This document shows positions 8,808-34,221 of a DNA stretch of 35,069 bases, piece by piece. The notes beneath the pieces were generated by a model that saw only the letters and a program-made list of their open reading frames with translations, was not told the origin of the DNA and did no database searches. This DNA is from Verrucomicrobiales bacterium (GTDB lineage Bacteria; Verrucomicrobiota; Verrucomicrobiia; Verrucomicrobiales; DEV007). Both the position numbers and the translations under genes were made by a program. Within the stretch, counting starts at the first letter, position 1. Each line of letters starts with the position of its first letter. The stretch lies in the NCBI GenBank assembly GCA_029213195.1, contig JARGNI010000051.1, positions 1 through 35,069 of the forward strand, given 5' to 3'.

Positions 8808-8876
8808 TGATTTCGCGTTTCACGACAATCGAAGCGCACGACTTTTTGACCGGCGTCGGAAACCAGGGATAGAATT

Positions 8877-10187: not shown

Positions 10188-10197
10188 GAGTATTTAC

Positions 10198-12747: not shown

Positions 12748-12777
12748 CCAACAAACTCCGATAGTCATCAGAAAACA

Positions 12778-12794
12778 CAATATCTCAAATCCAT
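12778..12794 (-). promoter_or_regulatory. Conserved upstream element, copy 2 (ATGGATTTGAGATATTG)
   Basis: On the minus strand this copy lies 30 nt before the start of the interrupted cytochrome gene at 12747. With flanks it matches copy 1 at about 35 of 46 positions, up to and including a CGGAGT that here acts as the ribosome-binding site. CACGAATCCG lies upstream in both. Confidence 0.5.
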
Positions 12795-12854
12795 CTCGGG
12801 ATTCAAAATCTCTACGGATTCGTGGAAAAAAGGCCGGACTTCGCAGCTACCATC

Positions 12855-15050: not shown

Positions 15051-15117
15051 TTCCGTATGATCAGTGTGCTCTGCTGCGGCGCTCCAGGTCGTTGTCCAAA
15101 TGGATTCGGATCAGTCT

Positions 15118-17781: not shown

Positions 17782-17789
17782 TTTTCTCT

Positions 17790-19076
17790 TCACGCCTGGA
17801 GTTGCTTCACGACACCTGCGCTGTCGCCATGGCGTTCGACTGGCAGTCCCACGCCGTGTAGAAGAGTCAGCCACACATCACACAGCGGGGTATCTTTCGG
17901 AAGGACAATGTTCTCTCCCAACCGGATCGAGGCGCCACCCCCGGCGAGAAGGGTCGTGCAGTTGTCGAGATAGTGGATCGCCCGGAGATTGGAGCCGAAA
18001 GCGAGACTCGTATGATCGAAGAGACTGGATCCATCCGCCTCCTTCACTGCCTTGAGCTTGTCCATCAGCCCCGCCAGAAGCTCGCTGTGCGCCTGGTCGC
18101 GTCGCTTCGAAACCTCCATACGAGGACCCGGCACGTAGTGACTCATGTCGTGAGGTTGCACCGAGGTCCCCAGGCTGTTGAGCACGGAAGCGATCGGCTG
18201 CCGGTAGGTCAGCACCCGCGTACTGTCGGTCTGGAGCGCCGCCACCATGAGGTCATACATCAGGCGAATTTCTTCAATTCCCTCGACGTTCGCTTGCGGC
18301 TCGCTGATGGGGGACTTCGGCCGAGGGCGGTCCATCCACGACTCGTCTTTTCCGAGGCGGGTTTCGATATCACGGATCCCGTCGAAATACTCGTCCAACT
18401 TCTCAACATCCGTCTTCGTGAGTCCACGTTGCAGATCCTTTGCATCGGTCAGGATGGTATCGAGAATACTGCGCTCCTGGGCAAGCAGTGCCTTGCGCTG
18501 GTCGAGCGGAGTGGAAGGGGCCGAGAAGAGCCTGTGAAACAAATCGACAGGATCATCGGTCCCTGCCACCGGCTTACCGCCCTTGTCCCACGCCAGGGAA
18601 AGACCAGGGCCATGCCCCGGCCCTGCGATGCCCTTGTCCGAGCCATTGAGTTGCAGCGACGAAAAACGCGTGTGTGGGCCCCATTCTGCAGCAGCAACCT
18701 GATCGACCGAAATTGTGTTGTGAAAACTACTCCCCGGAGCTCCAAACCGGTTGGCTCCTGTGAGCCAGAATGTGCTTCCCCAATGTGCTTCCGCCGAGTC
18801 TTTGTTGGTCGTATTCTGGACAATCGAAAAGTCATTCCGATGCCGATCCAAGGCCTTCAGGCCCTCTGGAAAGGTGTAGCCACTACCTACCTGCTCCTGG
18901 CTCGGCAGCCAGGTCTCCTGGGTGACCCCGTATCCGATCCCTAGGAACATCATCCGCTTGGGAGGAGTCGCAGGAGTCGCAGCTGCCACGAACGGACGAA
19001 ATCCGAATGATTCGAGAATCGGGAGCGCAATAGTCGCCGTGCTGCTTCGTAGAAAATTTCGTCGCTGTATAGCCAT
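17790..19076 (-). CDS. HXXSHH-family (DUF1552) protein, Tat-exported
   Basis: A 428-residue protein with a twin-arginine signal (MAIQRRNFLRSSTATIALPI). Blocks shared with the family are KRMMFLGIGYGVTQETWLPS, STFWLTGANRFG, GPGHGPGLSLAWDKGGKP and the motif H309-D-M-S-H-Y (Tyr for the final His of HXXSHH). It heads a minus-strand unit DUF1552, cytochrome, esterase, preceded by the conserved element at 19195-19211. The order DUF1552-then-cytochrome matches the plus-strand pair at 5134-8807 and is opposite to the pair at 8877-12747, although by sequence it is closest to the 8877 protein. Confidence 0.92.
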   Translation of the reverse strand: MAIQRRNFLRSSTATIALPILESFGFRPFVAAATPATPPKRMMFLGIGYGVTQETWLPSQEQVGSGYTFPEGLKALDRHRNDFSIVQNTTNKDSAEAHWGSTFWLTGANRFGAPGSSFHNTISVDQVAAAEWGPHTRFSSLQLNGSDKGIAGPGHGPGLSLAWDKGGKPVAGTDDPVDLFHRLFSAPSTPLDQRKALLAQERSILDTILTDAKDLQRGLTKTDVEKLDEYFDGIRDIETRLGKDESWMDRPRPKSPISEPQANVEGIEEIRLMYDLMVAALQTDSTRVLTYRQPIASVLNSLGTSVQPHDMSHYVPGPRMEVSKRRDQAHSELLAGLMDKLKAVKEADGSSLFDHTSLAFGSNLRAIHYLDNCTTLLAGGGASIRLGENIVLPKDTPLCDVWLTLLHGVGLPVERHGDSAGVVKQLQA

Positions 19077-19289: not shown

Positions 19290-19310
19290 CAAAAAGCGAT
19301 CAATCGATCG
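19290..19310 (-). terminator. Weak candidate intrinsic terminator of the sulfatase operon
   Basis: On the minus strand CGATC-GATT-GATCG overlaps the stop of the last sulfatase gene and is followed after one base by five T. The stem has only 5 bp with two A-T pairs, so termination would be weak. Confidence 0.25.
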
Positions 19311-20787
19311 GCTCCGGTGCCCACTCCGGAATCCCCTTCTCCGCGAGTTGTTTCTCGTAGCGAAGCGACAGCGGCTGCTCGTCCGCTTTGACTCGGGGCA
19401 ATCCCTCATTGACCAGAAACGGCAGGGTCGAGTCCCACCACTCCTGGTAGGCCTTTCGGAGTTCAGCGACTACTTCGGGATTCTCGGCAGAGACCTCCTT
19501 GGTCTCCGAAGGATCGGTTTCGATGTGGTAAAGTTCGACGTTGTTGACCAACCTCCATTCCTCGGTACGGACGGCGCACTTTTCGTAGATGGCTTCGTCA
19601 CGCTTCCCAGCACTCCAACGCCCACAGTGGAAAAACAACTTCCGATCGGCCCATTCAGCTTCTGAGTCCTCTAACAACGGCAGCAACGAACGCCCGTCCA
19701 ATTCCTGCATCGTGTCGGGAAGTTCGACTCCAGCCAACTCACAGAAGGTCGGATAGAAATCGAGATGCGCGGTAAGTCCATCGATATCGATGCCTTCGGC
19801 AAGGCGGCCAGGCCATTGCCAGAAGCAGGGAACATGAGAGCCACCTTCGTTCGGAGAGTTCTTCCCTCCTTTGAGGTTGGCGTTGAAATGCCTGATCTTC
19901 TCCCCGTTGAGCCGACCACTAAGATGGGTCCCTCCATTGTCGGTCATGAAGATGACGATGGTGTTCTCGAGTGCCTCCCACTCCGCAAGCTTTGCCAGGA
20001 GCCGACCGAAGTTGTCATCGATATTCTCGACCATCCCATAGCGACCGGCTGTACTCTTGTCATAGCCAAGCTCGACAAATCTCTTCGTGTAGGACCCCGG
20101 CGCGACGAGCGGCGCATGAGGAGCGTTCAGAGAAATGTAGGCGAAGTAGGGATTCTCGGATTCGTTCTCCTTTCGAATCCAGGCCAGGGCCGACTCGAAA
20201 AAGAGATCGGTGCAGTAACCCTTCGTCTTCACAATCGTGTCGTTGTGAAGCAGGACATTGTCGAAATAGACATTCTCCTTGTTGGGAGGGAAATCGCCAA
20301 GTCCGACCTGACCAATCCCTCCGGCACCGTGCATGAGCACCTCATCGAACCCGCGATTCTGTGGCAGGTATTCCTCTTCGTCCCCGAGATGCCATTTCCC
20401 AAAGAGCCCCGTCGCATACCCAGCCGTCTTCAGGGCCTGCGGCAACGTAAAGACATCGGGTGCCATTCGCTCGCGCTGCATGATGGTGTGAGTCACGCCT
20501 ACCTTAAAGGGCGGACGTCCACTCATGAGCGCTGCTCGAGTCGGGGCACAGGTCGGGCTGACCTGGAAATCGGTGAATCGAATCGCTTTCTCGTAAAACT
20601 GGTCGATGTGCGGCGTCTTTACGACTTCGTTCCCCATGCAGGAAAGATCCCCCATCCCCTGGTCATCGGTAATGACGAGAACAATGTTAGGGCGACTACC
20701 CGTGAGAGAATCAGCACTCGCTATCAGGGTGAAATTGGCGACGGCCAGAACCGCACCGCAGAGAAGTTTTTTCATGATTGGTTTCAT
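19300..20787 (-). CDS. Secreted formylglycine-dependent sulfatase (CAPTR variant)
   Basis: A 495-residue protein with a Sec signal after MKPIMKK (the ATG at codon 5 is an alternative start). The active-site signature is C80-A-P-T-R with AALMSG; Thr replaces the usual Ser of CxPSR, a variant also found in active sulfatases. D41/D42 (ITDDQG) and FMTDNGGTH are the metal-ligand blocks. Its architecture and the blocks SPTCAPTRAAL and QEWWDSTLPF resemble the first gene of the same operon (SPSCSPTRAAL and DQWWDTNFPK), so the operon begins and ends with two related sulfatases. It starts 9 nt after the stop of the ThuA/cupredoxin giant. Substrate unknown. Confidence 0.94.
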   Translation of the reverse strand: MKPIMKKLLCGAVLAVANFTLIASADSLTGSRPNIVLVITDDQGMGDLSCMGNEVVKTPHIDQFYEKAIRFTDFQVSPTCAPTRAALMSGRPPFKVGVTHTIMQRERMAPDVFTLPQALKTAGYATGLFGKWHLGDEEEYLPQNRGFDEVLMHGAGGIGQVGLGDFPPNKENVYFDNVLLHNDTIVKTKGYCTDLFFESALAWIRKENESENPYFAYISLNAPHAPLVAPGSYTKRFVELGYDKSTAGRYGMVENIDDNFGRLLAKLAEWEALENTIVIFMTDNGGTHLSGRLNGEKIRHFNANLKGGKNSPNEGGSHVPCFWQWPGRLAEGIDIDGLTAHLDFYPTFCELAGVELPDTMQELDGRSLLPLLEDSEAEWADRKLFFHCGRWSAGKRDEAIYEKCAVRTEEWRLVNNVELYHIETDPSETKEVSAENPEVVAELRKAYQEWWDSTLPFLVNEGLPRVKADEQPLSLRYEKQLAEKGIPEWAPEPID

Positions 20788-20796
20788 ACGCGGAAT

Positions 20797-23700
20797 CTAT
20801 TTCCCGATTTCCACAGCCAGCTCCTGGTAAGCCGTGTTTTCATTGGCGGAGGTGACAGGCGATACGCTCCAGAGAACCCAACGATAGGTTCCCAGGTTCT
20901 TACCCTCTCCTGCACGGAGCGAAGCGGCGGTGTATTTCGACGATACCTGCCTGGTGGTATCGATGGTGCCGAGCTCGGTGTAGTTCGCGGTTTTCCAACC
21001 GGGATCCTTCTCGCTGTCGCTTCCGAAAATCCTGAGTCGCTGTGCACCGCGTTTCCCAGCTTGATCGTGTGACCAACTCGAAACGGCCCGGATCGGCTTC
21101 ACCTCTCCGAGATCCATCTTGTAGGCGCCATCCGAGACTCCATTGCCGAATACAGGGCCAAATCCCGGGCTGACTTTTCCGTCCGTGAGAATCTGGATCG
21201 GATCGTTTTTTGTTTTGTGATTGGTCGTGACCATCCCGGACGCTTTCTTCAGGGGGATCAGTTTCTTGAACGCGTCCGGAGCCGTTGCCGTTTCAATCAC
21301 GACCCCTTCGCTCGATACCATCTGACCTGGTGACTTCGCAGGAGTGGACCTGGCGGAAGGATGTGCTGCCACCGAGTCATCGGAGACAATCATGACCCCT
21401 CGCATCACCCTCCAATGCCCCGGAAAGGTGCAAAGAAAGGGATACTCTCCCAGCTCCTCCGGCGTCGTAAACTTCGCTTCGAACTTCTCCCCATGAGGAA
21501 TCTGTGGCGTAGAAAAGAGAATCATTTCTGACTCGGGCACAAAGTGCTTCGCCATCCCATCCGGTTGAGCAGCCATCGCGTCGGCCAATTCCCCAACGGC
21601 TGTCCCCTTTCCTTTCTCGACGATCACGAGATTGTGAAGCATGTGATCCGGGTTTTCGAAAATGAACTGGTACTCCCTACCTGGTTTCACGGTGAAACTC
21701 TTCACATTGAAGGCAAGCTGGGAAGGCACCGCTTTGATGTAGATTCGGGTTTCCGTCACCGTGGCGTAAAGATCTTCCCAGCGCTTGGCCCAGGATTGAT
21801 GCTCCGTATCATCCGCTGCGAAGGTCACTCCTTCCGGCTTCTCCCCGATCAGGTTGGCGAGATAGAGATTGGCCGCTCCTGGCTTGGGTTTTCCATGAGT
21901 CTCGGAAAAATACTCGATCTTGTTGATGCCCGGTTCCAGGGTCACGCTGATCTGGCCGTCCTTGGAATGCTGACTTCCCGTGGCGCGAAGAAGTGGGATT
22001 CCGTTAGCATCCACATTCATGTAGGGATTGCCTCGGTATCCGAGGATCGCCGATTGCTCCCGATCACTCTTCAGGTAGATGGCACCGCCGATCTCCCGCG
22101 AACCACCGATCCAATGGGTGAGGCTGGTCTCCGGCGCAACCTTGAGCAAGGGGAACTCCGGGCTGAGCGGTGGCGAATCGTACAAGGCCGCAAGTTGCTT
22201 CATCTTGTCGATCGGAGAACCATCGGGAGCTTCCACGGCCTGAATGAAGTCAGCCCAGAACGGATCCTGTCCCTGTAGATAGCTGGCCGCAGAAATCACG
22301 CTGACCTGCATCCGTTCATCACCAAAGTCGACCAACCTGGTCGCGATCTCCCTGGCCTCCATGCCCAGGGTCGGAGCCCAGGCTCGCAAGGACTTTGCGG
22401 CGGCTCGTCGGACGGAGAGATTCTCGGAAGTAACCAACTGGAGAAACAGGTCCTTCTCCGAGAAATCTTTGAGTCGCTCGAAGAGCCAGAGCAGTTCCAG
22501 ACCCAACTCCTCATTCGTTGCGGCGTCGGCTACCTTCGTCCTGGCGAGGGCGAGCACCTCCTCATCGGAGTGTTTCTCCATCTCGTAGCGAACCAGTTCC
22601 CTGGCCGTAACCTGCGGATGGCTTAGGAGAGAAAACAATTCTTCGAGCCCGGCACCTGCGATCTCGGGAGCCGTTGCGAGAGGAGCGCCTTTCTTCGTCA
22701 GGCGCCAGATTCTTCCATTCGTGTAATCACGGTTCTCGTCGCGTATGGAATGCTGCGCGTGTCCGATGATGGGGTAGTAGAAATCCGAAATGTAGAGGGC
22801 CCCATCGAGCCCAAACTTCAGATCCGCAGGCCGGAAGGACTTGTTCGACGAAGTCAGCAAGGGAAGCGAGGTCGCCGCTTTGACCAAGGTGCCTTCCCGG
22901 TATTCCAAGGGAGTATACAAGACCGTGTTCTTACCCAGCAGATGACCGGTGACCAATCCGCCTTCCCAATCCTCCGGGAAATGGGAACCACTGACAAAGG
23001 CAAGCGTGCAGCCCTTGTCATCACGAAACGGCATTCCCATATCGGACGAACTGGAGGTACCGACGGGAGTGGCTACATTGTAGTAGTCACAATCGATGAT
23101 CTGGCCACCGCCAAACATCTGCAGCGCTTCGCCCCAACGATTGAACGAAATCTTCCAGGGATTCGGATGGGTGGTCTGTCGCTCGATGCTGAGCTTTCGG
23201 GTCGTAGGGTCGAGATGAAGAGTCGCCGCATTCTTGGTTCGCACGGGCCCGTAGGGGGTCTCAAACTGCCCACGATGAAAAAGCGCTTCATTGAAAATGA
23301 TGTCGCCTTGCGGTGAGCGCGCAAGATATCCCCCGTGATGGGTATCCGTGTCATCCGCTCCCCGAATCAACTCCTCGGTCACATCGGCGATGTCGTCCCC
23401 ATCGGTATCGCGCAGCCAGACCAGTTTTCGTGCCACGGATACGACGATGCCATCACGATAGATGACAAAGCCATCAGGAAGTTTCAGACCATCGGCAAAG
23501 ACGGTTTCCTTGTCGGCCTTGCCATCACCATCCGTGTCTTCGTAAATGAGAATCTTGTCATCGGAAAGTTCGCCAGGGAGCGGGACCGGATAGCTCTCGA
23601 AGGTGCACACCCAGAGACGTCCCTTCGCATCGAACTGCATCTGGAGCGGGTTGATGAGATGAGGAAATTCTTCGCTCGAGGCAAAGAGGTTCACTTCGAA

Positions 23701-25584
23701 TCCATCGGCCACCGTGAAATCCTTGAGATCTTCCGCCGGCGTCTTGATCACCCCCAATCCTCGCCGAGGTGGCTTGGGAGGAGGATCCGCCTTCACGGTG
23801 GATAGCTTCGGGATCGGATAGACCTGGTCCAAGTTTTGTGCCTGCTTCCAGATCACCTCGTCCAGTTCATTGGCCAACCTGAGATGATGAGGAATCTCGA
23901 CGTCATACTCGTAGGGGCGTGCGCGAAGACCATAGTAGTGAATCCCATTGGCCGGTTTGTAGGCCATCGCCACCTCGTAGGCCTTGCGGGAAACCAACTC
24001 TCGCAGGGCCTCCAGTCCGGGGGCGTCCGTATCGATGCGGATCTCTTTGCCATGAAGTCTCTTGGCGAGAAGCTGGCCAATCTCGGCATTCCCCTTTTCG
24101 TTCAGGTGAAGTCCGTTATCGGTGAGCGGTTCCTCGTGTTGGGCGAAAATTTCCTGGCTGGGACCGAAGAGATCGATGAAGCGAACGCCCTGCTCGTCCG
24201 CAATGTTCTGCATCGCCTCGCTGTAGAGCTTGATCGACTGGTTTCGTGAATCAGGATCCGGAAAAACGCCGGCGTCGGATTCCTCGACCGCGGTCGGAGA
24301 AACGAGGACGAGTTCACTTCCGGGATGGCGCTCCCGAATCATTTTCAAGTAGGTGCCCAGATCTCTCTCGAAATCAGGCAGGCCTCCCGCCCCCGCAAAG
24401 GACTCATTCATCCCGAAGCACATCACGACGCGCTCGCAAGGGAGTTGGCTCGAGATGTAACCAAGATGATCTCCAAATTTCGCGGGACGAATCCGGAACC
24501 CGACTTCATCACCTGTATGCGCAAGGGAACGAAAGCGCAGTTGCTTTCCGGGTTCGGCAACCTGGAGAAGGGCTTCAAAGGTTCCGTCTTCCTGGAGCCG
24601 TTCCACGAAGCTGTTGCCATAGAAGAGTGTCAGGCCCTCCGATTCCACTTTGACATCGGAAGGAGCGGCAGGCTTCGGCACTTCGGGCTGACTCCGAGCA
24701 GGCTTCTTCGGTTTCGCCTTTGCCTTCGGTTTCCCGGCAGCAGCAAAGGTGAATGGCTTGATCTCGGTATTCGCATCCGGGACATCGACTCCCGCGGCCC
24801 AGAACACTCCATTGACCATCACTCGCATCGACTGGGGGACGGCGAAATCTCCGACATGGCCCAAAGAGGTGGAAAAGGTTTGGCCGCCCCACTTGTTCTC
24901 CCAGGTCCAGGCAACGGTATCGGTCATCGTCTTCTCGAGTTCGTGGGTGCCGAACTGATTCGTCACCTTTCCCGTTCGCTTCGAATTCCCCGTGCCGACG
25001 AGGAGCGGCTGAATACCTGGTTCGGTTTTCGTTAGATAGAGAGTTCCTGGCGACTCCCAACTCTCCGAATCGACGCCGGTCAGGATGGGGTGCTTCGCCC
25101 CTCCGTCGGCGAGCTTGATTTGCGTCTTCCCGGCGAGATGAATCAGATACGGGGTGCCGAGAGCATCCTTTCCGAAATCGTCATTCCACTTCGCCCGTGG
25201 ATCCTCTTTGGGGTAATTGAAAGCATGCGTGCTCGTCCGGAAACCGACGACCGGTTTTCCAGACTCGAGGTATCTTGTGATGTTGGCGAGCTGCTCGTCA
25301 TCCAGTTTCAAAAATCGGGTGAAGAAAACAGCCACATCCGCTTCCGCGAGCGCCTCGAGCCCAGGCAGTCCTCGTTTGTCTTTCTCCGGGTCCCAGTCAG
25401 GATTGATCACGGTAGTGCGAAACCCGAGCCGCTCCAACTCCGTCGCAAACAGAGGCATCGTTCTCTGCGGGGAGTAATGATGCGTGCCGACCACGATCAC
25501 CGCATGCGGTTTCTCGGCGCTGAAACCAAAGCTCCCAAGCAACAGCAGCGGAGCGAACAAGAGGAGAGCGAATTTGGAACTCAT
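20797..25584 (-). CDS. Giant multidomain protein: ThuA, SGNH esterase, PVC-type propeller, HEAT, azurin-like cupredoxin
   Basis: 1595 residues with a Sec signal (MSSKFALLLFAPLLLLGSFG). In order: a ThuA-like domain (about 24-275); a Lys/Pro/Ala linker (about 282-313); an SGNH hydrolase with G-N-S325, a CFGMNESF block and D489-N-G-L-H493; a PVC-type beta-propeller of the membrane-bound dehydrogenase/heme-binding N-terminal type (about 615-968, from FTVADGFEVNLFA to NGRIWRLT); HEAT-like helical repeats (about 975-1110); a beta-rich linker; a cupredoxin (about 1282-1402) with H1317-N, C1385, H1390 and M1394, which is azurin's C-x4-H-x3-M spacing; and a C-terminal domain of about 190 residues resembling discoidin-like binding modules. 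No CxxCH is present. The frame is intact throughout. It lies 41 nt after the sulfatase/cytochrome giant. De-esterification coupled to copper electron transfer is my inference. Confidence 0.88.
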   Translation of the reverse strand: MSSKFALLLFAPLLLLGSFGFSAEKPHAVIVVGTHHYSPQRTMPLFATELERLGFRTTVINPDWDPEKDKRGLPGLEALAEADVAVFFTRFLKLDDEQLANITRYLESGKPVVGFRTSTHAFNYPKEDPRAKWNDDFGKDALGTPYLIHLAGKTQIKLADGGAKHPILTGVDSESWESPGTLYLTKTEPGIQPLLVGTGNSKRTGKVTNQFGTHELEKTMTDTVAWTWENKWGGQTFSTSLGHVGDFAVPQSMRVMVNGVFWAAGVDVPDANTEIKPFTFAAAGKPKAKAKPKKPARSQPEVPKPAAPSDVKVESEGLTLFYGNSFVERLQEDGTFEALLQVAEPGKQLRFRSLAHTGDEVGFRIRPAKFGDHLGYISSQLPCERVVMCFGMNESFAGAGGLPDFERDLGTYLKMIRERHPGSELVLVSPTAVEESDAGVFPDPDSRNQSIKLYSEAMQNIADEQGVRFIDLFGPSQEIFAQHEEPLTDNGLHLNEKGNAEIGQLLAKRLHGKEIRIDTDAPGLEALRELVSRKAYEVAMAYKPANGIHYYGLRARPYEYDVEIPHHLRLANELDEVIWKQAQNLDQVYPIPKLSTVKADPPPKPPRRGLGVIKTPAEDLKDFTVADGFEVNLFASSEEFPHLINPLQMQFDAKGRLWVCTFESYPVPLPGELSDDKILIYEDTDGDGKADKETVFADGLKLPDGFVIYRDGIVVSVARKLVWLRDTDGDDIADVTEELIRGADDTDTHHGGYLARSPQGDIIFNEALFHRGQFETPYGPVRTKNAATLHLDPTTRKLSIERQTTHPNPWKISFNRWGEALQMFGGGQIIDCDYYNVATPVGTSSSSDMGMPFRDDKGCTLAFVSGSHFPEDWEGGLVTGHLLGKNTVLYTPLEYREGTLVKAATSLPLLTSSNKSFRPADLKFGLDGALYISDFYYPIIGHAQHSIRDENRDYTNGRIWRLTKKGAPLATAPEIAGAGLEELFSLLSHPQVTARELVRYEMEKHSDEEVLALARTKVADAATNEELGLELLWLFERLKDFSEKDLFLQLVTSENLSVRRAAAKSLRAWAPTLGMEAREIATRLVDFGDERMQVSVISAASYLQGQDPFWADFIQAVEAPDGSPIDKMKQLAALYDSPPLSPEFPLLKVAPETSLTHWIGGSREIGGAIYLKSDREQSAILGYRGNPYMNVDANGIPLLRATGSQHSKDGQISVTLEPGINKIEYFSETHGKPKPGAANLYLANLIGEKPEGVTFAADDTEHQSWAKRWEDLYATVTETRIYIKAVPSQLAFNVKSFTVKPGREYQFIFENPDHMLHNLVIVEKGKGTAVGELADAMAAQPDGMAKHFVPESEMILFSTPQIPHGEKFEAKFTTPEELGEYPFLCTFPGHWRVMRGVMIVSDDSVAAHPSARSTPAKSPGQMVSSEGVVIETATAPDAFKKLIPLKKASGMVTTNHKTKNDPIQILTDGKVSPGFGPVFGNGVSDGAYKMDLGEVKPIRAVSSWSHDQAGKRGAQRLRIFGSDSEKDPGWKTANYTELGTIDTTRQVSSKYTAASLRAGEGKNLGTYRWVLWSVSPVTSANENTAYQELAVEIGK

Positions 25585-25625: not shown

Positions 25626-28600
25626 TTACTGGGAAACCTTCTTTTCGTCGACAAACTTGAGATAGGCAATAATGGAAGCAATCTGCTCGGGGCTGAGTCC
25701 GGCACCGAGATCCGGCATGACGGACCTTCCTTCGACATAGCCCGCGTTCTTGATATTCTTGATGGGGAAGGTCTGCGAAGCACCTCCCATTGAGAGCAAA
25801 GTGATGACCCCGCGCACCTCGCTTTTCTTGAAACCCTCAAAGGTCTTGCCGTCCTTGGTTTCGATCTGATAGGAGCGAAATACATTCTCGATCGCTGCGT
25901 TCGGATGAAGGATCGCGGTGATCGCACCGTCGAGATCGCGAGCCGCAAACCCATCGAGGGGCGGCGCAAAGCCTACTCCTTCTCCTCCGATCGCGTGACA
26001 GGTCAGGCAGAGGGATTGAGTGAGAAGCTTGCCATTTTCTGGCTTCGCCATCGGCATGGCCTTTGTGATCGCGGCACCCTTCTCAGCCAAAGCCGCTTCA
26101 TCGATTTTCGAGACATGACGATCGATGACCTTACTCCACTTCGATTCCTCGATGACCGGCAAACTGGTCTTCGCCTTTGCCATTTCAAAAAGGAATTCCT
26201 GAAACGCTCCCTGGTAGGAACCATCGAGTGCGAGATATTGCCCTTTCGGGCCTTTCACCTGGTTGGTCGGAGCAGGAGAATCACTCCATTTTCTCAGCCA
26301 GCCCAGATTCTCCGAAGAGATCTCGCCTTCCATCTCACGAAAATACCGGAGGACCTCGTAGCGAACCGTCCACGACGTTTCGTCTTCGAGAGCTCGGAGA
26401 ATGGGAGAGGCCTCGGCCTGACTCACATTCAAAGAAGTCAGCGAACGGACAACCTCCCGCCGCAGGTTGGGCTCGGGATCCTGCAACAACGCGCCCCAGA
26501 CTTTCTCATCGAAGTGACCGAGATGCTCCAAGGCGCGAAGAAGCGCGATCCGATCTTCGGGCGAGGAATCCGGCATCTGGATTCGTTCGATGAGATTCGG
26601 AACAATCGAAGAATCCCGTCGTTCGGCAATCTGGTTCAACGCCGCCTGCACTCCCCAAGAACTCTCCGAAACAAGCGCCTGAGGCAGATCCTTGGTCGCA
26701 ACCGCAGTGAAGTTGGTCGGATCCCGGCGTTCCTGGCTCTTCGCCCGAACTCGCCAGATCCGGCCATGGCTCTTGTCGCGAGCGGGATGGTCACGCGCAA
26801 CTTCGTTGTGGGAAATGATTCGGTTGTACCAGTCCGCAATGTAGAGACATCCGTCCGGTCCAAAGGAGACGGCAACGGGTCGGAACATCGGGTCCTCACA
26901 AGTCAATAAATCGGCCTCCTTCGTAAACTTCCAGACTCCGCTCTCATCCACCGTTCCGCTGACCGCGTTGATCTTTCCGAGAATGGGATTGGCTACAAAG
27001 AAACGTCCCTGCCACGGTTTCGGAAAGGAACCGCTTTGGTCCTCACAGATTGCAATTCCAGAGAACCCGGTCCCTCCAAGACTGAGATCCTGAGCCGTCG
27101 GCGGATGCAGTGGCGCGTCGGGATGGATGAGGCTCGAGACGAAGCTCGGATAGGAGCTGTCCTGTTCGAAAGGCACGAGGCTGTATCCCCAGTCGTTGGC
27201 CTCATGGATGAAAACGCGACCGAGGCGATCTTCGGCCCACGCCCAGATGTTGTTCATCCCCACGCCGAGAATACGAAGATCGGTTCCGTCAGGAGCGACT
27301 GAGGCAATCAAGGTCTTGTTGAAAGGATGACTCTTCCCGGCAGCATCCATGATCGTTCCGCCGTTGAGAACGCCCTGGGAGAATCCGATTTGCCCGGCTG
27401 GGAGTCGGACCAGTTGGTGTGGCAAGGTGTGGGTGTCCTGGACGCCAAATCCACGCAAGAGTGTGGTTCGCTCGTCGGCGACACCATCTCCATCCGTATC
27501 GGCCAGCTTGAGAATCTCCGGCCCCTGCGCCACGATCGCTCCACCGCCCCAGGGAAGGACTCCCATCGGCATCACCATTCCCTCCGCAAAGACGCGAGCG
27601 GTCTGCGGTTTCGCAAGATGGGGCTGATCGATGACCATGATGCGGTCAGGTCCCGGTTTCGTCCAAATGTCAGGATCGCGATCTCTCGGGTAGGCGGTCG
27701 AGGTCTGGGTCCAAAGCCGGCCGGCATCGTCAAAGGCGAGGCTGACTGGCTTCGGGACACCAGTTTCCTCGCTGGCAACCAACTCGACTTCGAAGCCCTC
27801 GGGAACTCGAAACGCGGCAAGCTGAGCTTGGGGAGATTGCGGCTCGGCATTCGCAGCGTTGCCTTCCTTGATCGCTTTTTTCGGTGCGGCCGAGGCAGGC
27901 GCAACAGGAGCCTTCGAAACCAATGTCGTGGCCTTGGCCCCTGGTGGAGTCAGCGCCACATAGTCGAGACCGAACATATGCTTGGGAAGCGCCTTGGGAT
28001 TGGAACCCGCCATCCGGACTCCCAACTTATGCTGGCCCTGGTCGAGCTTGAGCTTCTCGGCAAGAAGAATATCTCCAGTCAGCGTTACGTCGGGTGAAAA
28101 CAGATCCAGCGGCTCCCCCAGCTTCTCCCCATCGAGAGTAAACTGCACAATTCCGTAATCCCGCGCTTTTGTCAGGGCGACTGAAAGCGAGTATTCACCC
28201 GCCTCGGCAACCGGAAGTGCAAACACGATTTCGTCACCGGGCCTGGCCTCGCGCCACCAGAACTGCTTGCCGCTACTCCATTTTCCTCCTCCTACTTTCG
28301 CCAATTGCTGGACCCGGGGGCTTCCCGCCTTCTTGATCAGCTCGAGGTCTTCGCCCTCAAACTTCATTCCAATCGATTCCACCTTCGGCTTCGCCACCTT
28401 CTTCGTATTCGTGACAGGAAGAGCGGGCCTGTCGGTCTGTCGGTGCACAAAGCATCCCTTCTTATTCCCGGTCAGGACATCAACTCGCCCATCGCCATCA
28501 AGATCACCGACCGTGATGTCGACACCGACTCCCGAGTCATCGTGAATGCGGTGAGGAACAAACGTAACCCCACCCTCGTCTCCACGTGTCGTGCGAAACC

Positions 28601-31097
28601 AGTAGAGCACTGCCGGATCCTTCCCTCCGGGGTCCTTCCCGCCATGCGCAAAATACCGTTTCCCGGTAACCAGATCCACAATTCCGTCGCCATCGAAATC
28701 GGCGAGATTCATCCCGTGAAGTTGGCTGAACGCAATCCCCACGGGAGATTCCTCGACCGTCGCCCCCATGATGAGGTGCTTCTTGAAGTCGATTCCGCCA
28801 TCTGCTGCAGGGACCTGCTCGAACCAAGCCAGCCCATAGCCGTGCGCATTGATCGCCGTGATCACATCCTGATCTCCGTCCCCATCAAAATCATAGGCGA
28901 ACATCTGGCTACCGCCCTTGTCTTCGGAAAAGGCAAAGACATGTTTCTTCCAAAGGCCGCCGCTCGCTGACTGCTCCCACCAACCGCTCTTTTCGAGGAG
29001 ATCGTTCCTGCCGTCGTCATTCACATCGCCAAAGCCGAGACCATGGGTGAACTTTCCGCCGGTGGATTTCGGAGGACTGATCGCCGAAAACTTCCAAGGC
29101 TCCTGAGGTTTGGAGCGATCGGCTGGCGCGACAAACCCGAACTGTCCGTTCATCGAACAAAGAATCTCTTTCTTCCCGTCGCCCGTGACATCGGCCCAGA
29201 CAGGCGATTCGTTACCGACTCCTTCGAAGACGTTGAATCGCTCCCATCGCTTTTTCTCTCCGCCTTTGCCCGGATTTTTATACCAATAGGTCGCTTCCGC
29301 TCTTCGGGGAAACCCTAGCACCAAGACATCTTTCCATCCGTCGCCGTCGATATCGTCGGCATATGAAAAGAAGTTGTTTGAGTAGGCCGCCGTCTTGAAG
29401 GGGTTCGGTTTGTCGATCAATCGCCGCTCCTTGAAATCCGGCCCGAGGAAAAGAAACGGCCCGTAGACCACATCGGTATCACCGTCATTGTCCATGTCCG
29501 CCAATGCCGCGCTTTCCGAGTGAAACTCGTCCAGGAGCTGAAGGGTTTCGAATTCCCTGGCAGTCGCCGGAGGAGCCTTCCGATCCAACAGGGTTGGTTC
29601 GGTGACCTGATCCTGTTGAGTTTCAATATGGGAAACCCGGTAATGCTGGCTCCCTTTGAGCCAGTCGTAGTCTGCATATTGAAAGGCATTCTTTTTTCCG
29701 GTCCAAAGGCCGGGTTGACTGGTTGCCTCATCCCACGCATTCCAATCGGCGAGCATGGTTTGAACCAGCGCTGGCTTGTCCTTTGCAAGGTTGGTCGTTT
29801 CGCTCGGATCGGCTTTGAGATCGTAGAGCTGCGGGCTCTTCCCTTGAATCATCAGCTTGTATTCTCCGTCGCGAATCACCCCGCTCTTCCTCAGATAGGT
29901 CCCAGTCCTCCAATAGAGAGTTTCATGGGGAGCTTCCTCCGACTGCCCCGTCAGATACGGGCGGATATCTTTGCCATCCAGGCCTGCTTTCTTTGGATCA
30001 CCCCCGGCCATCGCGATAGAGGTGGCACCGATGTCGAGTGATGTCACCGGATGCTCGAGAACAGCGCCCTCTGGAAGTTTCCCCGGCCACTTCGCGATCA
30101 TGGGAACACGCAGTCCACCTTCGAACGACGTGCCCTTGGCTCCTTTGAAAGGCCGATTGTCGCTCGTGCGGCCCATCCCACCGTGATCACTCAGAAACCA
30201 GACAACGGTGTTCTCCTCCAGATCGAGCGCTTCGATTTTTGCGAGGACCTGCCCGATGCCATCATCCATTTCATCCACCATCGCGGCATAGATGGATCGA
30301 TGTTCGGGCTTCACTCCGGGAATCGGAGTCATGGAATCCGCGGGATACTTTGCAATGGTTTCTTCCGGGGCTTCCAGTTCCAGATGAGGGGCATTGTAGG
30401 ATAGGAAAAGGAAGAAAGGCTTCTCGTGATTCTTCTCTAAAAAATGGATTCCGGCATCGGTGAGTTCATGGGTGATATACTTCTTCCACTTCACCGGTGT
30501 TCGGTTGTGGAGGACCGGAAGCGTATGCTGCATGGCCCGAACTCCGGCAGGCCTTTTCAGGGGAGTGAATTTCCCATGGTAACTCGGATGATCCAGAGGG
30601 TAGTAGGTCAGCCCACCGCCGAGAAAACCGAACCAGTCATCAAACCCTTTCGCATTCGGATGCTGTTTGTCGGAGGTGCCCATGTGCCATTTCCCGACAC
30701 CGCCGGTCACATAGCCCTGCTGCTGCAACAGGCTGGCGATCGTGTCGATCTCGGGCAAGCCCTGAGCCGGATCGAGGGGTTCCGACACGTTCTTGTAGTA
30801 GCCAAACGAAGCCTGATGGCGACCGGTCAGAAATCCGGCGCGTGAGGGCCCGCACATGTTTCCCGTCACATAGGCGGAGGTGAATCGCACGCCCTCGTTG
30901 GCGAGGTCGTCGATGTGTGGCGTCGGAATGTCTTTGCAGCCATAGACTCCGACATCGGCATAACCCAGGTCGTCTGCCATGATGACGACGATGTTGGGAG
31001 GCTTGCTGCCTGAAGTGTCGGAAGGAGCCGCGAAAATGGTCCCGAGGAACCCTATCAGGAATGTCAGGACTCTGGAAAGATGCGCAGGGGTTTTCAT
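25626..31097 (-). CDS. Giant fusion: sulfatase, FG-GAP repeats, beta-sandwich, PVC-type propeller, HEAT, cytochrome c
   Basis: 1823 residues from ATG 31097, chosen because MKTPAHLSRVLTFLIGFLGT is a clean Sec signal (an ATG 9 codons earlier exists). Domains: type I sulfatase (about 34-480; D42/D43, C82-G-P-S-R, FLSDHGG); seven FG-GAP/VCBS calcium-loop motifs of the DxDxDGxxD type (about 530-880, such as DFDGDGDQDV and DLDGDGRVDV); a beta-sandwich probably binding carbohydrate (about 910-1056, WWREARPGDEIVF to FGLDYVAL); a PVC-type beta-propeller (about 1090-1460); HEAT-like repeats (about 1480-1600); and a c-type cytochrome with C1697-L-T-C-H1701 and likely axial Met1794 (SVMPDLG). No frameshift or stop breaks it. 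Sulfate removal and heme electron transfer would sit in one exported chain; the redox substrate is unknown. Confidence 0.9.
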   Translation of the reverse strand: MKTPAHLSRVLTFLIGFLGTIFAAPSDTSGSKPPNIVVIMADDLGYADVGVYGCKDIPTPHIDDLANEGVRFTSAYVTGNMCGPSRAGFLTGRHQASFGYYKNVSEPLDPAQGLPEIDTIASLLQQQGYVTGGVGKWHMGTSDKQHPNAKGFDDWFGFLGGGLTYYPLDHPSYHGKFTPLKRPAGVRAMQHTLPVLHNRTPVKWKKYITHELTDAGIHFLEKNHEKPFFLFLSYNAPHLELEAPEETIAKYPADSMTPIPGVKPEHRSIYAAMVDEMDDGIGQVLAKIEALDLEENTVVWFLSDHGGMGRTSDNRPFKGAKGTSFEGGLRVPMIAKWPGKLPEGAVLEHPVTSLDIGATSIAMAGGDPKKAGLDGKDIRPYLTGQSEEAPHETLYWRTGTYLRKSGVIRDGEYKLMIQGKSPQLYDLKADPSETTNLAKDKPALVQTMLADWNAWDEATSQPGLWTGKKNAFQYADYDWLKGSQHYRVSHIETQQDQVTEPTLLDRKAPPATAREFETLQLLDEFHSESAALADMDNDGDTDVVYGPFLFLGPDFKERRLIDKPNPFKTAAYSNNFFSYADDIDGDGWKDVLVLGFPRRAEATYWYKNPGKGGEKKRWERFNVFEGVGNESPVWADVTGDGKKEILCSMNGQFGFVAPADRSKPQEPWKFSAISPPKSTGGKFTHGLGFGDVNDDGRNDLLEKSGWWEQSASGGLWKKHVFAFSEDKGGSQMFAYDFDGDGDQDVITAINAHGYGLAWFEQVPAADGGIDFKKHLIMGATVEESPVGIAFSQLHGMNLADFDGDGIVDLVTGKRYFAHGGKDPGGKDPAVLYWFRTTRGDEGGVTFVPHRIHDDSGVGVDITVGDLDGDGRVDVLTGNKKGCFVHRQTDRPALPVTNTKKVAKPKVESIGMKFEGEDLELIKKAGSPRVQQLAKVGGGKWSSGKQFWWREARPGDEIVFALPVAEAGEYSLSVALTKARDYGIVQFTLDGEKLGEPLDLFSPDVTLTGDILLAEKLKLDQGQHKLGVRMAGSNPKALPKHMFGLDYVALTPPGAKATTLVSKAPVAPASAAPKKAIKEGNAANAEPQSPQAQLAAFRVPEGFEVELVASEETGVPKPVSLAFDDAGRLWTQTSTAYPRDRDPDIWTKPGPDRIMVIDQPHLAKPQTARVFAEGMVMPMGVLPWGGGAIVAQGPEILKLADTDGDGVADERTTLLRGFGVQDTHTLPHQLVRLPAGQIGFSQGVLNGGTIMDAAGKSHPFNKTLIASVAPDGTDLRILGVGMNNIWAWAEDRLGRVFIHEANDWGYSLVPFEQDSSYPSFVSSLIHPDAPLHPPTAQDLSLGGTGFSGIAICEDQSGSFPKPWQGRFFVANPILGKINAVSGTVDESGVWKFTKEADLLTCEDPMFRPVAVSFGPDGCLYIADWYNRIISHNEVARDHPARDKSHGRIWRVRAKSQERRDPTNFTAVATKDLPQALVSESSWGVQAALNQIAERRDSSIVPNLIERIQMPDSSPEDRIALLRALEHLGHFDEKVWGALLQDPEPNLRREVVRSLTSLNVSQAEASPILRALEDETSWTVRYEVLRYFREMEGEISSENLGWLRKWSDSPAPTNQVKGPKGQYLALDGSYQGAFQEFLFEMAKAKTSLPVIEESKWSKVIDRHVSKIDEAALAEKGAAITKAMPMAKPENGKLLTQSLCLTCHAIGGEGVGFAPPLDGFAARDLDGAITAILHPNAAIENVFRSYQIETKDGKTFEGFKKSEVRGVITLLSMGGASQTFPIKNIKNAGYVEGRSVMPDLGAGLSPEQIASIIAYLKFVDEKKVSQ

Positions 31098-31134: not shown

Positions 31135-32526
31135 TCAGTAATTCAGCGTCGCTCCTCTTGATGGCTTCTGGCGCTCATTGAGCCACCATTCTTTCGGACC
31201 TTCCTCTTCGATCTGCTTCCAGACTTCGAAGAGCTTCTGCTTCAGCTCTTCGGTCTTCTCGGGCATCTCCTCGGAAAGATCGTTCTCTTCCTTCCAGTCT
31301 TTTTGAATCTCGTAGAGTTGGAACTCGGTCAGGACATCATTTCCGACAATCTTCCAATCGCCGATCCGCAAGGCGACGCGATCTCCGCCCTGGCTGACGT
31401 GGGTCCGCCAGAACAATGGCACTTGCCGCTCGACAGGCTTGCCGTCGAATACGGGCAACAGGCTGACTCCATCGATGGTCCGATTCTCCGGCAACGGAAT
31501 ATCGACGATGTCGAGAATGGTGGTGAAGATGTCCGTGCCGATCACCGGGGTATCGCTGATCGTCCCCGCCTCGATCTGTCCGGGCCAACGCATCACTCCG
31601 GGCACTCGAATTCCGCCTTCGTGACTGCTTCGCTTCCCGCCACGAAGACCACCTGTGGTTCCGCCAAAACGCGCAACGGGTCCGTTGTCGGACGAGAAGA
31701 ACAGCAGGGTATTCTCGGCCGTTCCGGTTTCCTCCAGTGCCTCCATGACCTGGCCGAGGGCGTGATCCAACTGCGTAATGTTCCCCATGTACTTGGCATT
31801 CTCGTGCCCGTCGTAGAGCTCCTGGAACTTCGGGTCGGTCGCGATGGGAGAATGCGGCTCATGAATCCAGACCGATAGAGCAAATGGCTTCTCTGGATCG
31901 CGAACCTCTTCCAACCAATGCGAAGCCTCCTCCGCTACGATCTGGGCCGAGTAGCCGTCCGTCTCACCGACGGGCTCCCCATTGCGAACGAAGTTGTCCG
32001 GCTTCTCGTGACTGGGACTTGCGTTGTTATGCGTATAAAAGACGTAGTCATAGCCATGATCCTTGGGCTGAGGGAACTCGGGCACATTGAATTGCGGGAG
32101 CGAGTTGAGATGCCATTTGCCGACATGGCAGGTTTCATAGCCGATTCCTTTGAGCAGCTTTGGGTAAGTAATTTCACTGGCGCGCAAGTGGGCTTCATGA
32201 TTCCCCGAAAGGTGACGCCATACTCCGTTGCGGTAGGGAGTCCGGCCCGTCAGAATTGCCGAACGCGAGGGTGAACAAACCCCGGCTGCGGAATAACACT
32301 GCGTAAACTTGACTCCCTGCGAAGCGAGCTTGTCGAGATTCGTAGTCTTGATCAGTGGGTGCCCGTAGGTTCCTGAATCCCCCCACCCCATATCGTCGGC
32401 CAGGAAGACAACGAAGTTCGGACGAAGCGGCTTCTTTTCGTCAGCGAAGGATAGCGAAGCCCAGGCCAAGACGACGAGAGCATAGAGGGCGAGGCGGAAT
32501 CCGCGAGATGGTTTCGGTTTATTCAT
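31135..32526 (-). CDS. Secreted formylglycine-dependent sulfatase (type I)
   Basis: A 463-residue protein with a Sec signal (hydrophobic LALYALVVLAWASLSFA, cleavage before DEKK). The signature is C84-S-P-S-R with SAILTGR; D44/D45 lie in FLADDMGWGD and FFSSDNGPVARFGGTTGGLR is a family block. The closest relative in the window by these blocks is the sulfatase at 3289-4719. It is the second gene of the five-gene operon, 15 nt after the first and 37 nt before the sulfatase/cytochrome giant. The C terminus is charged (EEEGPKEWWLNERQKPSRGA). A sulfated sugar substrate is expected but not identifiable. Confidence 0.95.
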   Translation of the reverse strand: MNKPKPSRGFRLALYALVVLAWASLSFADEKKPLRPNFVVFLADDMGWGDSGTYGHPLIKTTNLDKLASQGVKFTQCYSAAGVCSPSRSAILTGRTPYRNGVWRHLSGNHEAHLRASEITYPKLLKGIGYETCHVGKWHLNSLPQFNVPEFPQPKDHGYDYVFYTHNNASPSHEKPDNFVRNGEPVGETDGYSAQIVAEEASHWLEEVRDPEKPFALSVWIHEPHSPIATDPKFQELYDGHENAKYMGNITQLDHALGQVMEALEETGTAENTLLFFSSDNGPVARFGGTTGGLRGGKRSSHEGGIRVPGVMRWPGQIEAGTISDTPVIGTDIFTTILDIVDIPLPENRTIDGVSLLPVFDGKPVERQVPLFWRTHVSQGGDRVALRIGDWKIVGNDVLTEFQLYEIQKDWKEENDLSEEMPEKTEELKQKLFEVWKQIEEEGPKEWWLNERQKPSRGATLNY

Positions 32527-32541: not shown

Positions 32542-34056
32542 TCAGGGTTGATTCGCAGTCCGATTACGATGGTTTCGAGGAGTCGGCTCCCCCTTGTCGC
32601 CTCCGCGTTGTATCATCTTCGGGAAATTCGTGTCCCACCATTGATCGTAGGCAGCGGAAAGATCGGAGACCAGCTTGGATTGACTCGATGCGATGTCCTT
32701 GCGGCAATTCGGATCGTTCTTGAGATCAAAGAGCGACCAACGGTCTTTCGTGGTGATCCCCCAGTGAAACCCCGCGTTTTCCCCGGTGTAGGTCGCCCGA
32801 GTCGCTCCCTTCTCGACGGAACGCAACGTCGTGCACTGGCTGCTGAACTCTCTGCACTCGGGAGCACCACATTCGTGACTGCGCACGAGCAGGTAGTCCC
32901 CTTTCTGCACCGAGGCCATCGCATACTTGTGCTCGGCAGCCATACCACTCGGCCATCGTCCGACATGACGGAAAAGCAATCGATCCTCGTGCCAGGTCAC
33001 GGGCTCCTCGGATTCCAGCAAGGGACGCAGGCTGAAACCCTCCAGATCCGCGTCCAGCGCGTCAGGAATCTCCACTCCCGCGAGGTCGCACAAGGTGGGC
33101 ACCACATCGAGATGGGCTGTCAGATGATTCACCTCGTGAGGCTCCCACTGCCCCGGCCAGCGCCACAAGGAAATTGCTCGGGATCCGCCCTGCCAGATGG
33201 TGCATTTGCAGCCACGCATCCCGGCATTGAATACCTCGAGACCGTAGGTAGCGCCGTTGTCTGTCATCAGGATCACGATGGTGTTCTCGTCGAGATCTCG
33301 ACCCCTCAGAAACTTCATGAGTCGCCCCACGTTGAAATCGATGTTGGCGACCATTCCGAGATAAGCCGCTTCGTCATCACTTACCCTACCGCGAAACGGG
33401 GCAACGAACTCCTCGGGAGCCGCGAGCGGAGAATGGGGAGAATACGTCGCGAGATAGCAGAAGAAAGGCTGATCCCCGCTTTCTTCAATGAAGGTCATGG
33501 CATCGTCGAAAAAGAGATCTTCACGATAGCCCTTCCCTTTCTCCCGCTTGCCGTTCCGGATCATCACCGGATCGAAGTGAACACGCGGGCCCCCGGCGTT
33601 GGTTGAACACCAATCAAACCCGCGTTGGCCTGGTGCGTAGTCCCCCTTGTTTCCCAGATGCCATTTCCCAATGAAGCCAGTGCGGTATCCCGCCGACTTC
33701 AGCAACTGAGGGAGAATGACCGCATCGAGATACAGTTGTTCGCGGGGTTGAAGGGTGTGCGTGACTCCATTTCGGAACTCATGCATCCCGGTCAGGAGAG
33801 CAGCGCGAGTCGGTGAGCAAGATGGGCTGACATAGAAATTCTCGAATCTTACACTCTCCTCGTGGAGCTGATTCAGGTGTGGCGTCTTCAGGAGAGGATG
33901 CCCATGACGGCCGAGATCTCCATAGCCCTGGTCATCGGTTAGAACCAAAATGATATTGGGAGGTTCCTCCCTTTCACTTCCCTCCAGAGTGCCCGTGAAA
34001 ACGGCAAGAGCCGTGACCAAAACGACACTGAACAAAGCGTTATTCGTAAAGCTCAT
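32542..34056 (-). CDS. Secreted formylglycine-dependent sulfatase (CSPTR variant), first gene of the operon
   Basis: A 504-residue protein if started at ATG 34056, where MSFTNNALFSVVLVTALAVF forms a Sec signal; an upstream in-frame ATG (34191) would add 45 residues before the signal and run through the conserved upstream element, so I reject it. The signature is C80-S-P-T-R with AALLTG, Thr in place of Ser. D41/D42 (LTDDQG) and LMTDNGATYG are metal-ligand blocks. It is related to the last gene of the same operon. The C terminus is basic and Asn/Arg-rich (GEPTPRNHRNRTANQP). The promoter region is shared with the divergent glycosidase at 34272. Confidence 0.93.
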   Translation of the reverse strand: MSFTNNALFSVVLVTALAVFTGTLEGSEREEPPNIILVLTDDQGYGDLGRHGHPLLKTPHLNQLHEESVRFENFYVSPSCSPTRAALLTGMHEFRNGVTHTLQPREQLYLDAVILPQLLKSAGYRTGFIGKWHLGNKGDYAPGQRGFDWCSTNAGGPRVHFDPVMIRNGKREKGKGYREDLFFDDAMTFIEESGDQPFFCYLATYSPHSPLAAPEEFVAPFRGRVSDDEAAYLGMVANIDFNVGRLMKFLRGRDLDENTIVILMTDNGATYGLEVFNAGMRGCKCTIWQGGSRAISLWRWPGQWEPHEVNHLTAHLDVVPTLCDLAGVEIPDALDADLEGFSLRPLLESEEPVTWHEDRLLFRHVGRWPSGMAAEHKYAMASVQKGDYLLVRSHECGAPECREFSSQCTTLRSVEKGATRATYTGENAGFHWGITTKDRWSLFDLKNDPNCRKDIASSQSKLVSDLSAAYDQWWDTNFPKMIQRGGDKGEPTPRNHRNRTANQP

Positions 34057-34145
34057 GAAATCGAACGATCGGAGTGCGAGCGCCAACGATCCGCACCCAG
34101 CCGTCTCTGCCCTTGATTCACTATCACTTTGACCAATCGAAGCGT

Positions 34146-34162
34146 CCATATTCGAAATCCAC
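34146..34162 (-). promoter_or_regulatory. Conserved upstream element, copy 4 (GTGGATTTCGAATATGG)
   Basis: On the minus strand this lies about 89 nt before the first sulfatase of the five-gene operon and within the 215-nt divergent region 34057-34271. Apart from this element and the plus-strand promoter candidate I see nothing further in that region. Confidence 0.45.
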
Positions 34163-34221
34163 ACGGAAATTTTGTGAGTTTCCACGATCATGGGGATTCA
34201 GGCCGTTAGAATGGAGAATTC

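Follow-up and report, generated by a model that had tools for sequence, protein, structure and literature searches.

A single gene in a 35,069-nucleotide stretch of DNA from a Verrucomicrobiales bacterium (contig JARGNI010000051.1 of assembly GCA_029213195.1; this whole stretch is referred to as the window) joins a sulfatase to a c-type heme domain in one predicted protein of 1823 residues. The domain content points, at about even chances, to an S1 sulfatase joined to a pre-existing redox enzyme of the PVC type, forming an exported two-enzyme chain in which desulfation and oxidation of one glycan may be coupled, with electrons leaving through the heme. An earlier note, made from the sequence, had described one frame that links sulfatase, FG-GAP, beta-sandwich, propeller, HEAT and heme c parts. 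This description held: 1823 sense codons run without a stop from an ATG at 31097 to a stop codon ending at 25626, and Pfam and NCBIfam place the domains along it. The chance of a stop-free run of this length is about 10^-30 at the base composition of the window. What that account missed is that the gene lies on the minus strand, that the FG-GAP part has an enzyme-like fold, and that a copper-type sister gene adjoins it. The gene and its parts are as follows.

25626..31097, minus strand: fusion gene, 1823 residues, with signal-like N-terminus, S1 sulfatase, FG-GAP propeller, beta-sandwich, PVC propeller, HEAT repeats and heme c
31026..31097, minus strand: signal-peptide-like N-terminus, residues 1-24 (sequence and hydropathy scan)
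29700..30998, minus strand: S1 sulfatase domain, residues 34-466 (Pfam/NCBIfam and solved relatives)
30840..30854, minus strand: formylglycine motif C82-G-P-S-R (motif search)
29565..29639, minus strand: linker, residues 487-511, from the sulfatase C-terminus to the start of FG-GAP (stand-alone relatives and hydropathy)
28383..29564, minus strand: FG-GAP (VCBS-type) propeller, residues 512-905 (model, structural search and alignment)
27933..28322, minus strand: MiXBM-like beta-sandwich, about residues 926-1055 (model and structural search)
26739..27836, minus strand: PVC-type propeller DUF7133/TIGR02604, residues 1088-1453 (Pfam/NCBIfam, structure and profile alignment)
26298..26600, minus strand: HEAT repeats, about residues 1500-1600 (Pfam and model)
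25656..26042, minus strand: heme c domain TIGR02603, residues 1686-1814, with CLTCH at 1697-1701 and M1794 (NCBIfam, motif and alignment)

Pfam and NCBIfam placed Sulfatase at residues 34-365, SGSH_C at 325-441, DUF7133 at 1088-1453 and Cytochrom_C at 1687-1765, together with six FG-GAP_3 stretches (best 582-646) and HEAT_2 (best 1500-1583). The propeller scored 161 bits with TIGR02604 against a curated cut-off of 122.2, and the heme domain 83.8 bits with TIGR02603 against 68.15. In a hydropathy scan no other part of the protein is as hydrophobic as residues 1-24, which constitute a predicted signal only. The sulfatase had been called apparently complete; its PF00884 match covers profile positions 1-300 of 301 with 205 bits against a cut-off of 25. 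The formylglycine motif (C/S-x-P-x-R) is in place as C82-G-P-S-R. Among solved structures the nearest are carrageenan sulfatases (PDB 6bia, 6b0j, 9hh3, 6prm), some of which bear the name S1_19; they resemble the domain over its whole length (E 9e-79 to 7e-88) and share the CxPSR motif; unlike the fused sulfatase, they are stand-alone enzymes. The genome contains at least 150 sulfatase matches (150 scored of 275 candidates) and 14 FGE-family matches (two in one frame, best 298 bits), the latter being candidate sulfatase maturases.

The junction between the two halves was characterized by codon statistics and by comparison with stand-alone relatives. G+C contents at the three codon positions are 0.61/0.43/0.65 in the sulfatase and 0.61/0.42/0.64 in the FG-GAP part, with a slightly lower third-position value (0.53) in the linker. 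The hydropathy scan found no hydrophobic or signal-like stretch at the sulfatase/FG-GAP junction. A stand-alone sulfatase from congener G022 (locus L048) ends '...YDWLKGSPHYRETAE' where the fusion reads '...YDWLKGSQHYR', leaving a linker of about 25 residues. Because the G022 enzyme ends near the matching residue, the sulfatase part is taken as full length. The redox part is likewise full length: its closest relative, at locus L052 (JAHDCN010000091.1, Verrucomicrobia bacterium MAG-135), stands alone as a gene and begins with a hydrophobic, signal-like N-terminus; an identical sequence is present in congener G008. Identity between the L052 protein and the fusion is 76% in the redox half and 70% across the FG-GAP and sandwich parts, and two further loci (L053 and L054) have the identical five-domain order without the sulfatase. 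As judged from these sequences, the gene is two full-length parts joined end to end. It is very improbable that two genes were wrongly joined by assembly or sequencing. The exact fusion is known from one draft assembly, as such an error would have it, but the junction is in frame with nearly even codon statistics, and three other sulfatase-heme fusions occur in the same genome, one type of which is also found in two other genomes.

The propeller/heme half, to judge by sequence comparison, is an old and widespread family without sulfatase. We kept 80 of 92 loci from GTDB (this set overlaps with the sets of 55 and 386 other genomes used below). Of the 80 FG-GAP frames in these loci, 75 include a propeller and/or heme domain, six a 3-keto-disaccharide hydrolase and none a sulfatase; 15 of the 80 frames run off the end of the available DNA and show partial architecture. 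The core of propeller, HEAT and heme c is shared with PVC-type heme-binding CxxCH proteins (TIGR02604 plus TIGR02603, DUF7133). Those found have FG-GAP in front and no sulfatase, whereas the fusion adds a whole S1 sulfatase. The sandwich is internal in the fusion but C-terminal in 36 of the 80 loci. In freshwater Verrucomicrobia, sulfatases often have PSCyt heme genes as neighbors, and some of these genes include carbohydrate-binding modules; in the portion of that report available to us they are separate genes of other heme families, and no sulfatase fusion is mentioned there (PMC5615132).

The fusion does not stand alone in its genome. At least four of the 28 TIGR02603 heme-domain matches share a frame with a sulfatase, in four different domain orders. 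This count is a lower bound, obtained by comparing the frames from the sulfatase and heme family searches and by scanning loci, which covered part of the 28 heme frames. Besides the gene in the window, these are C86 (2593 residues: 3-keto-disaccharide hydrolase, propeller, HEAT, heme, sulfatase, sulfatase), C2 (1778 residues: diverged propeller, heme, F5/8, 3-keto-disaccharide hydrolase, sulfatase; its propeller is below the TIGR02604 cut-off) and C11 (1724 residues, locus L228, 2612-7786: sulfatase, ThuA, propeller, HEAT-like and CBM4_9-like parts, both below cut-off, and heme). Frames of the C86 type are also present in G006 (2443 residues) and in G008 (at least 1848 residues, one sulfatase), and thus in three species of the genus:

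L039 6905-14686; L162 5258-12589; L186 2-5548: C86-type frames, 1848-2593 residues, with one or two sulfatases

The C11 gene lies 57 nucleotides ahead of another FG-GAP, propeller and heme gene of the same genome. Since three further fusions occur in this genome and the C86 type in two congeners, joining is recurrent rather than a single accident; with the sulfatase at the N-terminus of two fusions and at the C-terminus of the other two, several separate joining events are likely. Ten congeners yielded 252 heme-domain frames, 27 of them of at least 1490 residues. Eighteen of these long frames were inspected, the other nine belonging to the FG-GAP family and the 225 shorter frames being set aside, and one of the 18 held a sulfatase. 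As far as seen, sulfatase-heme fusions are therefore rare outside this genome. The fusion described here is real, seen so far in one genome, and lies within a recurrent, partly conserved pattern.

Such fusions could have arisen incidentally, by loss of a stop codon between adjacent genes of a polysaccharide locus, so that the parts act independently and their union has little functional meaning. We give this explanation clearly less than an even chance. Sulfatases of this genome are also fused to GH127, a second sulfatase, GH32, GH2, a BNR-type domain and GH43 (L043, L044, L045, L046, L047 and L050; the sulfatase-sulfatase fusion at L044 also carries CBM4_9), and because sulfatases are joined to glycosidases as well, fusion looks like a general habit of the genome. 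Congener G020 has a heme gene separated from a sulfatase gene by 3 nucleotides as called, likely the precursor state of a fusion. The counterparts of C11 are ThuA, propeller and heme genes without sulfatase in 6 of 6 congener loci examined, out of 8 candidate rows. An incidental origin would also fit the occurrence of the exact fusion in this genome alone among the sets examined. It fits less well that the joined genes belong to one functional sphere, that the C86 type has been kept in three species, that the signal-like sequence is gone from the junction, and that the position of the sulfatase makes separate events likely. Sulfatase-glycosidase gene fusions have been reported in Kiritimatiellales, Polaribacter and Planctomycetes (PMC6388578). 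In the available part of that report they resemble the present gene in joining a sulfatase to a polysaccharide-active enzyme in one chain; the partner there is a glycosidase, in place of the heme-bearing redox module of the fusion. The new element relative to known sulfatase fusions is the redox partner. We found no account of a sulfatase joined to a c-type heme in the full-text literature that names sulfatase, which leaves most subscription journals outside; within that scope, the statement of the earlier note that no such enzyme was known to it stands.

The redox half was modeled separately (residues 1076-1823, pLDDT 82, pTM 0.79). The best 16 structural rows for the propeller model are all glucose, aldose or pyrroloquinoline quinone (PQQ) sugar dehydrogenases, or AA12 enzymes (Z 29.2-26.1), and the next row is hedgehog-interacting protein (Z 24.4). 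A profile of 22 propellers matched 12 GSDH sequences from related genomes with a probability of 98.2% in global and 96.0% in local mode; these came from 12 of 13 loci tried and were kept for the motif G-x-R-N-P, L208 having been dropped for lack of the motif. His1223 aligns with the motif His of GSDH (NHNSG/DHWGG), is invariant in the 22 propeller rows and is at least 90% conserved in a 35-row alignment of the redox half, where mean column identity is 26%. We take the equivalent residue in GSDH to be the catalytic His, a role assigned from the Acinetobacter glucose dehydrogenase. In GSDH, the motif GLRNPWG includes an Arg, presumably a PQQ ligand as in the same Acinetobacter enzyme; this Arg is replaced here. 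The PQQ sugar dehydrogenases GSDH and AA12 (PDB 3a9g, 1qbi, 6jt5, 6h7t) thus share with the propeller its fold (Z 26-29) and the motif His, and differ from the fusion in their Pfam GSDH match and PQQ-ligand Arg, whereas the fusion carries a heme c. From alignment and model, the propeller is like a PQQ sugar dehydrogenase in fold and motif His; it is not assigned as a member, the PQQ-binding Arg being replaced. A redox domain is also joined to a sugar oxidase in Coprinopsis pyranose dehydrogenase, as in the fusion.

The propeller, HEAT and heme parts might instead form a non-enzymatic scaffold for docking, sensing or electron storage that tethers the sulfatase to its glycan. The replaced Arg would agree with such a role, as would the lack of a close solved relative of the propeller in a sequence search (best 2g8s, E 6e-4). 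We consider it unlikely, given that the motif His is invariant or nearly so in the two alignments, that a propeller-heme protein joined to a 3-keto-disaccharide hydrolase makes sense for a sugar oxidase, and that a copper-type domain replaces the heme in the sister gene described below. Redox anchoring of the enzyme, which had also been suggested, found nothing in its favor other than that binding modules are present.

The terminal heme c noted previously, with CLTCH and a distal MPD, was recovered as CLTCH at 1697-1701 and VMPD with M1794. Conservation of the Met column reaches at least 90% in the alignment of 35 rows. Among solved structures, the diheme protein Kustd1711 of Kuenenia comes closest to the heme domain, and the PDB includes M292 mutants of this protein. 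An axial heme ligand role for M1794 would fit the conserved Met and, by analogy, the Kustd1711 M292 mutants.

Seven calcium loops had been proposed for the FG-GAP part. Five are found by a strict pattern search, and two, near residues 636 and 691, are looser and were recognized by eye. Across 23 aligned rows that span several phyla, a row set different from that of the redox half, mean column identity is 54%, and residues beyond the calcium loops are invariant, including His685, His752, His794 and His818. Verrucomicrobiota and Planctomycetota rows of alignment A4 carry an FG-GAP domain about 45-56% identical to that of the fusion. FG-GAP is fused directly to a 3-keto-disaccharide hydrolase at L057 (7923-9803) and L068 (7896-9770). 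In structure, the FG-GAP model (pLDDT 82) is closest to aldos-2-ulose dehydratase (PDB 4a7k; Z 26.6, root-mean-square deviation 3.7, 340 aligned residues), followed by the next fold at Z 22.4 and integrins at Z 22.0. This enzyme acts on keto sugars, and one of its structures (4a7z) contains the intermediate ascopyrone M. It shares the FG-GAP/VCBS propeller with the fusion protein and has a cupin, whereas the fusion protein has no AUDH_Cupin match at E<=1. AUDH_Cupin was found in none of 288 genomes of the phylum, yet also in none of 14 control genomes, so this count is uninformative. The structural likeness suggests that the FG-GAP part may act in an elimination step on an oxidized sugar. In the available part of a survey by Pereira and Lupas (PMC8023676), VCBS propellers, aldos-2-ulose dehydratase and integrins form one supercluster, and the shared fold alone therefore says little about FG-GAP function. 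The part may be an integrin-like calcium adhesin only. Weak integrin profile matches (best E 4e-4 and 8e-4) and the lack of a dehydratase match up to E 10 agree with an adhesin; only the structural comparison favors aldos-2-ulose dehydratase. Polysaccharide lyase family 11 gave weak profile matches (E 0.05-0.3) and no row among the 50 structural rows listed. The beta-sandwich, described earlier as probably carbohydrate-binding, superposes on the solved carbohydrate-binding module MiXBM (7ehg) with a target-normalized TM-score of 0.84-0.85 and 25-26% identity. It is like MiXBM in its modeled fold and is a putative binding module.

In the coupled reading, the FG-GAP/beta-sandwich part would hold a polysaccharide while the sulfatase cleaves a sulfate ester from it, and the PQQ-dehydrogenase-like propeller would turn a ring hydroxyl on that glycan into a ketone. 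The electrons would go to heme c and then to the respiratory chain, after which either the FG-GAP domain itself or partner 3-keto-disaccharide hydrolases would open or eliminate the oxidized sugar. With the parts in one protein, desulfation and oxidation would stay on one substrate chain. This coupling, to which the sequence evidence gives about as much chance as not, gains support because three more sulfatase-heme fusions occur in the genome, one type of them in two congeners. Desulfation followed by oxidation had been the proposal of the earlier note, and it is supported by the further fusions and weakened by the uniqueness of the exact fusion and by the general habit seen in the sulfatase-glycosidase fusions.

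Several observations weigh against coupling. The exact fusion was not found again in the 80 GTDB loci. Among 387 genomes of the phylum, its own included, the sulfatase/FG-GAP junction was spanned by its own row only (with at most 6 candidates scored per genome), and among 56 genomes (33 in the genus, its own included) no other row spanned the queried part of the junction; the longest other FG-GAP-bearing frame there had at most 1665 residues. The earlier note had held that homologues always present as separate genes, with a fusion confined to this assembly, would speak against it. Among the sets examined, the exact fusion was indeed found in this assembly alone, yet other sulfatase-heme fusions exist and the C86 type occurs in congeners. 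The fused sulfatase has Asp-His where its two best solved relatives (6bia, 6b0j) have Asp-Asn. One sulfatase copy of C86 (L039) reads CGVSR rather than CxPSR, and the heme domain of C11 is below the TIGR02603 cut-off, though above that of Pfam Cytochrom_C. In the propeller, the Arg of GLRNPWG is not kept, the fusion reading M-N-N with the Asn kept, though the GSDH set was itself picked by that motif and gives no measure of how often true GSDH lack the Arg; the Pfam scan reported no GSDH match for the fusion protein. Against an elimination step by the FG-GAP part stand its identity of 13% to aldos-2-ulose dehydratase, the lack of a cupin match and the lack of a sequence-profile match up to E 10.

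The genes around the fusion form a run on one strand, in the order sulfatase, sulfatase, fusion, copper-type sister and sulfatase, with gaps of 15, 37, 41 and 9 nucleotides.

32542..34191, minus strand: S1 sulfatase, first of the five-gene run
31135..32526, minus strand: S1 sulfatase, 37 nucleotides ahead of the fusion gene
20797..25584, minus strand: sister gene, 1595 residues (ThuA, GDSL, PVC propeller, HEAT-like part and azurin-like copper domain)
19300..20787, minus strand: S1 sulfatase, 9 nucleotides behind the sister gene

The copper domain of the sister gene (CTFPGHWRVM) occupies the position of heme c, and its HEAT-like part is below the cut-off. Because two different carriers, heme c and azurin-like copper, are found at one position, export of electrons is supported. 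The rest of the window contains, by Pfam, two sulfatases, a ThuA gene, a DUF1552 gene, a DUF1592/PSCyt3-type gene, an NPCBM esterase-like protein and a Glyco_hydro_cc gene. Between the sulfatase groups, window positions 5134-19076 hold several DUF1552-like and DUF1592/PSCyt-like genes, identified by Pfam at 5134-6390 and 10201-12507 and otherwise by eye.

PVC heme proteins are numerous, with 28 TIGR02603 matches in this genome, and their repeated fusion to sulfatases and 3-keto-disaccharide hydrolases is a direct clue to their substrate and to the step they may perform, the oxidation of desulfated glycans. The evidence also allows a bolder version, which we regard as improbable, in which the protein is a single-chain oxidative depolymerase: the sulfatase would free a hydroxyl, the propeller would make a keto sugar, and FG-GAP, in the manner of aldos-2-ulose dehydratase, would eliminate the adjacent substituent, a glycosidic bond or a sulfate. 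If FG-GAP were an eliminase, the breakdown of sulfated glycans could bypass hydrolysis and so escape enzyme surveys that rely on glycosidases. If the protein were such a depolymerase, chains would be cut without a glycosidase, and the sulfatase-free members in Verrucomicrobiota and Planctomycetota would constitute a large unrecognized enzyme class.

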